A stretch of DNA of 64,000 nt, taken from Roseivirga sp. (lineage in GTDB: Bacteria > Bacteroidota > Bacteroidia > Cytophagales > Cyclobacteriaceae). Below, in pieces: positions 43,231-45,500 of the stretch. The notes below the pieces were generated by a model. That model had not been told where the DNA came from, ran no database searches, and was given only the letters and a program-made list of their open reading frames with translations. Location: positions 1 through 64,000 of the forward strand of contig JAJCYM010000094.1 of assembly GCA_029262895.1 (NCBI GenBank), given 5' to 3'. Each line of letters starts with the position of its first letter. The first letter of the stretch is position 1. The translations under genes and the position numbers were made by a program.

Positions 43231-43700
43231 ACGAAAGACTTAAGCAACTCTATAAAACACAGATTCTCACCAATGCGGAAGACCAGACCTATTTTAAGGA
43301 GCTGACTGAAGCCACGCATATATTAGAAGCTTATAACCCAATGTGCGGGGACAAATACACGCTATACCTGAAAATGGTGGGAGAGAAGATAGCAGAAGCT
43401 TCCTTTAAGGGCTATGGTTGTGCTATTTCAAGAGCTTCCACCTCCGTTTTAATTAAGAATATTTTAGGTAAATCCTTGCAAGAACTTCAGGCTATTATTG
43501 AGCAGTTTATGGAGGTGATCAATGAGGAATCAGAAAAATCCCCAGAGTCCATTACCGCAGATGAAGAATTGCTGGCCTTTGCCGGCACTCGCGAATACCC
43601 CGAGCGCAAGAAATGTGCTAGCTTGAGTTGGGATGAGTTAAAGGTGAATTATCCCTCAGAGTTATCCGCAGGAAACTCTGAGGACTTAGAGCTCTCCTAG
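43227..43700 (+). CDS. sufU: SufU-type sulfur acceptor, with REP-encoded tail
   Basis: 157 residues, IscU/NifU-like. The zinc/sulfur-transfer ligands are in place: C40 and D42 in NPMCGD, C65 in GYGCAIS and C130 in RKKCASL. SufU accepts persulfide sulfur from SufS. Residues 143-153 (PSELSAGNSED) are translated from a REP palindrome at 43654-43683, and the last four residues lie beyond it. The family core ends around residue 140, so the REP replaced or extended the original C terminus without touching the active site. Confidence 0.92.
   Translation: MNERLKQLYKTQILTNAEDQTYFKELTEATHILEAYNPMCGDKYTLYLKMVGEKIAEASFKGYGCAISRASTSVLIKNILGKSLQELQAIIEQFMEVINEESEKSPESITADEELLAFAGTREYPERKKCASLSWDELKVNYPSELSAGNSEDLELS
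43654..43683 (+). repeat. REP palindrome type A, copy 1 (inside sufU)
   Basis: A 10-bp perfect stem (CCTCAGAGTT with AACTCTGAGG), then a bulged A, an inner TCC/GGA stem and a GCA loop. It is the same element as at 44579-44608. Confidence 0.85.
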
Positions 43701-43739
43701 ATATCAATGTGGTGTACTTGAGTGTGGGTATTCATCCTT

Positions 43740-43763
43740 CAGAGTCCTCTTTGAGTGACTCTG
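43740..43763 (+). repeat. REP palindrome type B, copy 1
   Basis: Stem CAGAGTC with GACTCTG, inner CTC/GAG stem, TTT loop and a bulged T on the 3' side. The bulge side shows it is inverted relative to type A. Confidence 0.8.
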
Positions 43764-43847
43764 AGGGGACGGTAGTGATTCTGGCTAGGTACCATTACAT
43801 GATGGCATACCCAAAAATTTGCTGGGAGTGCCCTCATAATCACCATA

Positions 43848-43933
43848 CAGAGTTATTGGCGGGAAACCATGTATCTCTCATAGAGTTATTCGTAATCACC
43901 ATACCTCTCAGAGTTATCCGCAGGAAACTCTGA
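43848..43933 (+). repeat. Two decayed and one intact type A REP
   Basis: Partial copies (CAGAGTTATTGGCGGGAAAC at 43848 and TAGAGTTATTCG near 43881) precede an intact copy at 43908-43933 (TCAGAGTT with AACTCTGA). AATCACCATAC occurs twice here, a sign of local duplication. The intact copy ends 12 bp from the transposase stop. Confidence 0.7.
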
Positions 43934-43945
43934 TGACATAGGATC

Positions 43946-44506
43946 TCAGACATCCCTATAATCTGTCAAAAAAGAAGGTTTACTTTCCCCAAGTTCATAA
44001 TATGCTGCACTTGAATGTGGATATTCAACAAAGTCATTTGCTAAACTCCATTTTCCCTTCACGGGATTATGATGTATATAATCGAGGATATTGATAAATC
44101 CTTTTTTGCTCGAAATTTCTTTTGCATCAAAAGACAACTTAAAAACCTGATGTTTCTTTCCATTTGATTTCTCACTTGCACGAACTCCTCTTTCAAGTGC
44201 TTTTAGAAGATTAATCTTCTTCTGATTTTTCAATCGTTTTACTATCTCATAAGCGAGAAACCTCTTGGCTTCACCAATGATATGATTCAGCCCTTTGCTT
44301 TCCTGTGTAGGATAGCAAATTATATGAAGGTGATTGGGCATTATGACGAATCCATTAACCAAGCAGCCACGATTACTAATCTCAGTAAACCATTTTTCAA
44401 AGTATTCATATGATTGAGACTGCTCAATCAAAGGGAGCCACTTATAGCATGTGAATGTGGTGAAGTAGAAAACACCCTTTTCTGAATGTATTTGATGCGT
44501 ACTCAT
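43946..44506 (-). CDS. REP-associated tyrosine transposase (RAYT, Y1 family)
   Basis: 186 residues, IS200-like Y1 fold. The HUH motif is H59-L-H61 in VIMPNHLHIICYP; Y143 in LDYIHHNPVKGKW is the candidate catalytic tyrosine, and the FTTFTCYKW start is typical. RAYTs are single-copy domesticated transposases thought to mobilise REP sequences. Intact REPs lie 12 bp downstream and 33-102 bp upstream, and more copies occur on both sides, which supports the assignment strongly. The frame looks intact. Confidence 0.9.
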   Translation of the reverse strand: MSTHQIHSEKGVFYFTTFTCYKWLPLIEQSQSYEYFEKWFTEISNRGCLVNGFVIMPNHLHIICYPTQESKGLNHIIGEAKRFLAYEIVKRLKNQKKINLLKALERGVRASEKSNGKKHQVFKLSFDAKEISSKKGFINILDYIHHNPVKGKWSLANDFVEYPHSSAAYYELGESKPSFLTDYRDV

Positions 44507-44538
44507 GTTCAGTATTTTAATTTAGTTCTCTGCAATTT

Positions 44539-44568
44539 CCTCCGAGTCCTCTTTCAGTGACTCGGAGG
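44539..44568 (+). repeat. REP palindrome type B, copy 2
   Basis: A 10-bp perfect stem CCTCCGAGTC with GACTCGGAGG and a bulged T on the 3' side. It lies 10 bp before an inverted type A copy; the two form a BIME-like doublet upstream of the transposase gene. Confidence 0.82.
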
Positions 44569-44578
44569 GGGGGGTATT

Positions 44579-44608
44579 CCTCAGAGTTATCCGCAGGAAA
44601 CTCTGAGG
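44579..44608 (+). repeat. REP palindrome type A, copy 3
   Basis: Identical over the whole element to 43654-43683 (CCTCAGAGTT, ATCCGCAGGA, AACTCTGAGG). Confidence 0.85.
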
Positions 44609-44646
44609 AATCAAGATTATTTTTTATTATAATAAAACTAAAAATA

Positions 44647-44678
44647 TTAGTTATTAAAAACTAAAATATTTAGATTTG
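44647..44678 (+). promoter_or_regulatory. Promoter of the 2H phosphoesterase gene
   Basis: TTAG (44647-44650), a 20-base AT-rich spacer and a perfect TAGATTTG (44671-44678). The leader to the ATG at 44706 is about 23 bases. Confidence 0.5.
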
Positions 44679-44705
44679 TTCACTGAGTAATTAAAAGTAA
44701 TCGAC

Positions 44706-45272
44706 ATGAAAAATACATCTGAACAAAATTTACATGACTATTTTGTGTTGATCAGCCCACCTAATTGGATCAATTGGGAGGTAGAAGACATGAAATACGA
44801 TTTTGCTACAAATTATGGGAATTACCCTAGTCAGGATACCAAACCACATATCTCCTTAATGCATTTTACAGAAGTGGAGAAGAGCGAAAAGAAGGTACTT
44901 GAGTCCATCTCTAAGATGGCTTCAAATATGAGTACATTCGATATTTCCTTGCGAGGATTTGATTTCTTTTACACAAATAATAGTTTCTATATTGATGTGG
45001 AAAGCAAGGGCCCTGTGAAGAATTTGCATGACTCATTATTGATGGAGCTAGACTTAAATAAAGTCTCTTTTGAGCGTACCAAAGATTACACTCCGCACAT
45101 GACAATAGGCAGAAGACTTTCTGATAGTCAATTCAGAAATGCTTTCCATGAATTCAATGCCCGTTCCTATACTAATTATTTTAGAGTAGAGTATTTGACT
45201 GTACTTAAAAGAGAACGTGGTCACAACTCCTGGGAGCACCTGACTGAGATTCCGCTTAAAGAAGTAGGATAA
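44706..45272 (+). CDS. 2H phosphoesterase (2'-5' RNA ligase-like)
   Basis: 188 residues with the two motifs of the 2H family: H48 in PHISLMHF and H131 in PHMTIGRR. These enzymes act on cyclic phosphates or 2',5' linkages in RNA or nucleotides. The exact substrate is unknown. It has its own promoter and lies between two REP clusters. Confidence 0.85.
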   Translation: MKNTSEQNLHDYFVLISPPNWINWEVEDMKYDFATNYGNYPSQDTKPHISLMHFTEVEKSEKKVLESISKMASNMSTFDISLRGFDFFYTNNSFYIDVESKGPVKNLHDSLLMELDLNKVSFERTKDYTPHMTIGRRLSDSQFRNAFHEFNARSYTNYFRVEYLTVLKRERGHNSWEHLTEIPLKEVG

Positions 45273-45408
45273 ACACGAATACTCCTTTTTACCAACACCA
45301 CACTACAGGATACATATTTCTTCTTCCAGCTTCATAGTCGTTGACTATGGAAATCCCTTAGCGTCTTTTTATGCACTTGCACTAAAATTTAGTGTATGCT
45401 AAAGAAGG

Positions 45409-45500
45409 CTCTGAGGTCTAAACTCCTCAGAGTCACTCGAAGAGGACTCTGAGGAATTCTATTCCCCTTAGCATTCTTTTCAATGAGTGCTGAGGGGAAT
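45409..45500. repeat. REP cluster: type B (inverted) plus a longer hairpin before the polymerase gene
   Basis: 45425-45454 is a type B element in reverse orientation (CCTCAGAGTC with GACTCTGAGG, bulge on the 5' side). CTCTGAGG at 45409-45416 can pair with its left arm. 45461-45500 is a further hairpin: ATTCCCCTTAGCA pairs with TGCTGAGGGGAAT (one G-T pair). Confidence 0.78.

Follow-up and report, generated by a model that had tools for sequence, protein, structure and literature searches.

Does a Y1/HUH transposase gene lying amid a cluster of small hairpins belong with those hairpins, and if so, as part of what kind of system? This is the question raised by 64,000 nucleotides of contig JAJCYM010000094.1 of Roseivirga sp. 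(the whole stretch that was analysed, hereafter the window), where a first-pass annotation had read a REP-associated tyrosine transposase (RAYT) inside a field of inverted doublets of repetitive extragenic palindromes (REPs). Our analysis makes it very probable that gene and hairpins form a RAYT-REP system (or REPtron), belonging to a lineage of Bacteroidota that uses a different hairpin code instead of the usual GTAG-tagged REP.

The transposase is RAYT-like

The gene (43946..44506, minus strand) encodes a protein of 186 residues with an HUH pair formed by H59 (44330-44332) and H61 (44324-44326), and with a predicted catalytic tyrosine, Y143 (44078-44080), whose context is Y-x-x-x-N-P, in contrast to the Y-x-x-x-Q of IS200/IS605 transposases. 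H59, H61, Y143, N147 and P148 are invariant across 70 aligned proteins, i.e. the protein has the HUH motif and single catalytic tyrosine in Y-x-x-x-N-P by which RAYTs are recognised. The AlphaFold2 model (pLDDT 95, pTM 0.89, 70 aligned sequences) finds its best fold match, by Foldseek alone, in Escherichia coli TnpAREP (4er8, E 1.6e-8), followed by IS200/IS605 TnpA proteins from 3.8e-5. Tree and fold agree in grouping the protein with RAYTs rather than IS200/IS605 TnpA: with two of the genome's own IS200-type TnpA proteins (L178 and L179) as root, the 85 proteins of the lineage to which the window's protein belongs (lineage I) form one clade (support 98), separate from these two and also from the other RAYT-like proteins in the tree, 15 in all, L042 being the nearest of them (L133 and L134, with broken frames, were excluded from trees later than the first large one). 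By motif, fold and tree the protein is thus RAYT-like and not IS200-like, as the first-pass annotation had supposed. The copy number is what a RAYT would lead one to expect as well, since the gene occurs once in the genome (the other five genomic matches are just 27-38% identical) and is flanked by REPs that are dispersed elsewhere.

Hairpins of one plan, scattered through the genome

The three type A and three type B hairpins that had been reported around the gene are indeed there. Type A copies lie at 43655..43682 (overlapping the 3' end of sufU and encoding SufU residues from about 143), 43907..43934 (the nearest REP downstream of the transposase gene) and 44580..44607, all on the plus strand; type B copies lie at 43738..43765 and 44540..44567 (the nearest REP upstream of the gene) on the minus strand, and at 45426..45453, between ligT and dinB, on the plus strand. 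Both types follow one plan when read with the unpaired base 5' (B being reverse-complemented), namely a 9-bp outer stem CTCAGAGT[T/C], an unpaired A, a 3-bp inner stem and a 3-nt loop, and they differ in inner stem and loop. The bulged base and inner stem claimed for each REP are borne out by folding as single-stranded DNA in five of the six, which form an outer stem of at least 8 pairs and, after one unpaired base on the 5' side, an inner stem of 3 bp closed by a loop of 3 nt; in the remaining copy, at 44540, the inner stem is weakened to 2 bp and the loop has 5 nt. The outermost pair of the 9-bp stem is broken in two copies (43738 and 43907), and for each of the six, 0 to 2 shuffles per 200 fold equally well. 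Two further elements of the first-pass annotation are also present, a decayed type A copy (about 43848..43867, plus strand, 85% over 20 nt) and a longer imperfect hairpin (45458..45499), which has a different stem, directly adjoins the last REP and is unlisted by the covariance model R1 described below.

These hairpins are not confined to the locus, and neither of the two outcomes that the first-pass annotation had named as refuting its reading (stems at this locus only, or a transposase grouping with mobile IS200 elements) is what was seen. In the draft genome (5.79 Mb, 102 contigs), A and B patterns with at most 3 mismatches match at 16 and 13 sites, against 0 and 0 for reversed-pattern controls, so their presence is not due to chance. 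Model R1, with 150 of 2926 first-look candidates scored, gave 74 rows at E<=1 on both strands, and 40 distinct places at E<=1e-3. Gene context was read for the 34 of these 40 places that lay in fetched stretches (the other six were left out): 32 are intergenic by an open reading frame (ORF) heuristic, 10 of them between convergent ORFs and 19 between tandem ORFs, while one lies on the sufU 3' end and one on an ORF 5' end.

Where REPs lie in close pairs, these are mostly inverted. Among the loci of the window's genome and its relatives, 19 of 23 pairs at most 30 nt apart are inverted, the arrangement of inverted REPs with a short spacer known as a REPIN; 11 are (+,-), with the pyrimidine-rich tags that precede the stems facing outward, 8 are (-,+), with tags inward, and 4 are tandem. 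The spacers are mostly unconserved between loci, by eye. The example given in the first-pass annotation, 44539-44608, is of the (-,+) rather than the commonest kind. Its claim that A and B are inverted relative to each other needs a restriction: it is true, by bulge position, for the doublets 43655/43738 and 44540/44580, and fails for the B copy at 45426, which is on the same strand as the A copies.

Covariation among 34 distinct REPs from six genomes indicates what is preserved in these elements. Eight of the 12 pairs have changed on both sides, both-side changes number 67 cells where shuffles average 20.8, only one of 408 pair cells (of G-U type) shows a change on one side only, and 95.8% of the cells are paired, with slid controls at 46.8% at most. 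It is the palindrome that is kept, rather than its letters.

Hairpins beside about half of the related genes in Bacteroidota

In the first set of relatives, the window gene (L030) and the six genes nearest to it (L036-L041) all have R1 matches (E<=0.01) no more than 1.5 kb away, and at this threshold there is none near the other 28 RAYT-like genes. Because R1 had been trained partly on the loci tested, a second, hold-out model (R2) was built from 29 REPs, all from the window's genome; at E<=0.05 it matched at five of the six lineage-I relatives, the miss being L041, a truncated gene, and at none of 23 other RAYT loci. The paralogs L031-L035 of the genome have no hairpin of the same type at E<=0.01 (one weak match, at 0.016, lies beside L033); palindromes of other kinds are found with some of these paralogs or of their kin.

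The association extends well beyond a single stem sequence. A letter-free search for hairpins recurring near the gene, in the best 80 of 402 named Bacteroidota loci, found at least two recurrent hairpins with exactly one unpaired base at 39 of the 80, and 118 of 120 recurrent hairpins were of this kind. Such bulged recurrent hairpins were seen in 0 of 80 shuffled controls and in 0 of 50 distal stretches (1.6-2.9 kb away; the same 50 loci gave 26 near the gene), one distal stretch having two recurrent perfect hairpins and none bulged. Outer stems vary widely among loci (TCAGAGTC, GCAGGGTC, GCGGGGTC, CCGGGGTC, GCAACGTC and others), and what is mostly kept is the GT that adjoins the last base of the stem and the unpaired base. 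In the general plan that emerges, a pyrimidine-rich tag precedes an outer stem of about 8-9 bp with GTC or GTT at its end; one 5' unpaired base follows, then an inner stem (2-4 bp) and a loop (3-4 nt) that is often GNA.

Polarity, tag and loop

The bulge and the tag give each hairpin a direction, and this direction follows the gene. With hairpins read so that the bulge is 5', the closest REP upstream of the gene has the sense orientation in 39 of 42 loci, and downstream the closest one is inverted in 40 of 42, so that tags point outward; with unambiguous hairpins alone the counts are 26/29 and 29/31 (Fisher p 2.5e-11). Locus L099, from the same genome as L039, is included when 45 of 86 loci are counted as REP-bearing, and was dropped from the polarity, tree, residue-79 and tag counts.

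The tag itself is rich in pyrimidines. They make up 89% of the bases at positions 10-13 below the bulge, and in 89 of 141 REPs they fill all four (mirror purines, 9 of 141). Not one of the 141 REPs has GT[AG]G 0-2 nt 5' of its stem, nor does any of 100 in the set from the window's genome and its relatives; on the opposite side it occurs in 5/141 and 9/100. These are, in other words, not REPs of the GTAG type, and the 3' flanks hold no motif as strong as the 5' tag. A set of 93 non-redundant REPs from 16 genomes was detected with a TCAGAGT consensus, A/T and G..A loops receiving a small bonus. Their unpaired base is either A or T and does not vary within a genome, except for one G in G033, and the loop is GCA, GAA or GTA in 59. 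GNA loops are described as giving very stable mini-hairpins in DNA (PMC4686876), which suits hairpins acting as DNA more than as RNA.

An RNA role is the first rival that has to be weighed. The hairpins might act as transcription terminators or mRNA stabilisers unrelated to the transposase, and their intergenic placement, with 10 of 32 between convergent and 19 between tandem ORFs, would suit this, as would a terminator-like hairpin beside the doublet at C17. Yet single-sided changes of the G-U type are nearly absent compared with those on both sides (1 of 408 pair cells vs 67), the polarity set by bulge and tag follows the transposase gene, and the recurrent bulged hairpins are near lineage-I RAYT genes and not 1.6-2.9 kb off. 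We consider an explanation by RNA function alone very unlikely.

The unpaired base and residue 79

The unpaired base is constant in 40 of 44 REP-bearing loci and changes 4 times over the 42 loci placed on the RAYT tree; the A-bulge label changes 4 times, against a shuffled mean of 10.6. L109 is the sole locus of the 44 with mainly an unpaired G, and its four copies all have the same orientation. That the bulge follows the tree bears on a second rival, in which gene and hairpins are neighbours by accident or through shared insertion hot spots and another enzyme spreads the hairpins. Two counts speak for it: 10 of 36 relatives have R1-type REPs and no close lineage-I RAYT (G001, G008, G012, G015, G016, G021, G030, G032, G034 and G035, of which G030 and G035 have just 1 and 2 matches), and 41 of the 80 related loci have no pair of recurrent bulged hairpins. 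Against it, the bulge base tracks the transposase phylogeny and RAYT lineage II, in the same genus, carries other hairpins, and we judge it highly improbable; the ten genomes possibly contain orphan REPs left after loss of the gene.

The two counts just given nonetheless tell against a REPtron, and several other observations pull in the same direction: (i) the only NCBIfam match, to the REP-associated tyrosine transposase model NF047646 (69.1 bits, E 3.6e-19), is below the curated cut-off of 80 bits, (ii) the Pfam Y1_Tnp match is weak (E 0.0076), (iii) the branch of the E. coli RAYT is very long, which makes its position in the tree uncertain, (iv) one of five covariation measures, further pair types, is at 12 close to the shuffled 11.3 and is reached in 185 of 500 shuffles, (v) ambiguous T-type hairpins were oriented by a rule preferring G..A loops and A/T bulges and (vi) no REP has been seen moving, the noncoding DNA of the comparison genome G005 (see below) being too diverged for exact junctions.

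Which part of the protein might read the unpaired base is suggested by comparing the two. Residue 79 (E in the window protein, 44270-44272, minus strand) is the protein column that best separates the 41 loci with A or T bulges: in this first set all 10 A loci have E, G or T there (E with A in 8/8), and all 31 T loci have N or D. As this column was the best of all those tried, it was retested on 61 further loci, which share less than 95% identity with the first set and among themselves (26 of 87 having been removed as duplicates at 95% identity), 39 of which have at least 2 REPs. There, all 12 loci with E have an A bulge, the 2 with T have T bulges, the 1 with D has an A bulge, and N goes with T in 22 of 24 as scored, or 23 of 24 if L242, scored A through two spurious hairpins, is set to T by hand. 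Over both sets together, E at residue 79 goes with an A bulge in 20 of 20 loci.

The AlphaFold2 model places residue 79 close to the beginning of helix 73-94, two residues before the invariant K81 (44264-44266, minus strand). In E. coli TnpAREP, K82 of helix alpha3 is reported to contact the unpaired C27 (PMC8266576), and in our reading K81 corresponds to this K82, in a region where the automatic alignment is gapped. Several loci break the rule: A-bulge loci without E79 are L038 (T), L098 (G), L231 (D) and L232 (N), with L038, L231 and L232 in one small clade and L098 outside it; L215 and L217 have T79 with T bulges; and the G-bulge locus L109 has N79. The tree holds 3 independent contrasts, none opposed, which is not significant, and residue 79 is therefore a strong lead as specificity residue rather than a proven one.

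Apparent filled and empty sites

Of 39 genomes searched for SufU, 20 others have a match, and all of these alignments stop at or before residue 145 of the window's 157; the REP at 43655 starts at about residue 143. The relative G005, in which R1 finds no REP at E<=0.01, keeps the order sufS-sufU-ligT-dinB with 75-90% protein identity, and its sufU-ligT gap is about 90 bp, compared with about 1 kb, with RAYT and REPs, in the window. The stretch without counterpart in G005, approximately 43640..44608, holds REPs and transposase, the type A copy at 44580 being close to its right edge. Judged by these sequences, sufU-ligT in the window vs G005 is an apparent filled/empty site for the whole REPtron.

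The same trend is seen at other sites. Eight of 18 REP loci have a clear ortholog in G005 (at least 58% identity), all but L008 anchored on both sides, and at the six other anchored REP sites the window's genome is longer every time (165/26, 198/53, 338/3, 185/97, 941/149 and 1520/947 bp, window's genome vs G005). The extra DNA includes more than REPs.

A third rival is a mobile IS200/IS605 element with its end hairpins (left end, LE, and right end, RE) copied around the genome. For it speak the gene's absence from the same site in G005, the shared HUH/Y1 fold, and the hairpins of IS608 and ISDra2, which also have contacted unpaired or mismatched bases (PMC8266576). Nevertheless, what such an element would look like, a TnpA with Y-x-x-x-Q in several mobile copies with LE and RE, is not what was found: the context is Y-x-x-x-N-P, the other five genomic matches are merely 27-38% identical, the nearest flanking hairpins are inverted with tags outward and the two IS200 TnpA of the genome are a separate clade. 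This leaves the mobile element with very little probability.

Relation to known systems

The first-pass annotation thought such a system little described in a Cytophagales-like genome, which needs a correction. In Quentin et al. (2018), subclass 2.6 (Bertels group 5) comprises Bacteroidetes RAYTs with atypical, non-GTAG structures (PMC6006769). The association of RAYTs with atypical hairpins in Bacteroidetes is itself thus not new, and this subclass is the closest published group, the sections consulted giving no plan for its hairpins. Shared features are a Bacteroidetes host, NH[LIV]H (NHLH here), Y-x-x-x-NP, SS after the core, flanking non-GTAG atypical hairpins with copies elsewhere and an extra segment between helix C and strand 4 (PMC6006769); the AlphaFold2 model has predicted helices 98-106 and 110-114 in such a position, between helix 73-94 and strand 127-131. 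The window protein differs in having VFK for the WQ motif and YIHHNP for YIH[QN]NP (PMC6006769). At the WQ position, F is found in 63 and W in 11 of the 74 lineage-I proteins in which the motif was found (11 more were unmatched), and the RAYT paralogs L031 and L033 of the same genome fit both WQ and YIH[QN]NP. An open-access literature search, its results covered in part, found no paper defining these hairpins.

With E. coli TnpAREP (subclass 2.2, group 2) the system shares the best fold match, irregularity of the REP stem, the inverted pairing of REPs beside the gene and, by the correspondence of K81, an unpaired base of the kind contacted there by helix alpha3 (PMC6006769, PMC8266576). Unlike E. 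coli REPs, these hairpins have no GTAG tag and have a single-base 5' bulge instead of a two-base mismatch (PMC8266576). In E. coli, W94, Q95, E100, H101 and R104 are given as the residues that read GTAG (PMC6006769); since alignments place F122, K123, A128, K129 and S132 at these positions, the GTAG-reading pocket is not conserved here. The recognition studies consulted concern GTAG systems, of groups 2 and 3 (PMC8266576).

IS200/IS605 TnpA proteins such as those of IS608 and ISDra2 share the fold and a hairpin with an unpaired base (PMC8266576), and differ by Y-x-x-x-Q and by belonging to a mobile element. The window's genome has three such IS200-type genes (L178, L179 and L180), and the tyrosine motifs of L178 and L179, YI[E/K]xQxEHH, are like those of Quentin subclass 1.2.

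In Pseudomonas fluorescens, the apparent REPIN unit is reportedly two inverted REPs with a short spacer and tags outward, which is also seen here; the differences are that there is no GTAG here, that the REPs occupy about 40 places and that the spacers are mostly unconserved by eye.

Proposed mechanism and outlook

How a REPtron of this kind might work can be outlined in steps. The RAYT protein would bind the REP hairpin as single-stranded DNA, probably on the lagging-strand template; the helix starting at residue 73, with residue 79 and K81, would read the unpaired base; the pyrimidine tag, instead of GTAG, would position the cut; cleavage would proceed through Y143; and the outcome would be that REPs and REP pairs are moved or copied into intergenic sites. 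A bolder reading, which we offer tentatively and which falls somewhat short of being probable, is that a phylum-wide RAYT lineage swapped GTAG recognition for an extrahelical base (A or T) plus a pyrimidine tag, that residue 79 (E for A, N for T) sets the base that is read and that the RAYT gene is cargo of a giant REPIN able to insert as a unit, as at sufU.

In this lineage nature supplies dozens of enzyme-hairpin pairs whose code is simple (the base in the bulge, the inner stem and the tag), together with a candidate specificity residue, so that co-evolution of a domesticated transposase and its repeats becomes directly testable by swapping a single base or residue. Atypical Bacteroidetes REPs are now described well enough for model-based finding, and an apparent filled/empty site is available for a whole REPtron.

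Other hairpins and arrays

Three observations concern neighbouring elements. A second RAYT lineage, 32-36% identical to that of the window, is flanked by perfect palindromes YTTGTTGGTG-loop-CACCAACAAR or close variants (loci L043, L044 and L046-L050, in relatives G014, G012, G004, G005, G011, G002 and G032). Next to RAYT-like paralogs (L033, 1437-1459; L059, 1368-1392; L022, about 1215-1554; L028, about 1460) there is another family of hairpins, GTCTNAGCG...CGCTNAGAC, at some sites interleaved with CTCAGAGT REPs. Finally, in G033 (locus L038, 480-1574), REPs form a tandem array of ~125-bp units beside the RAYT gene.

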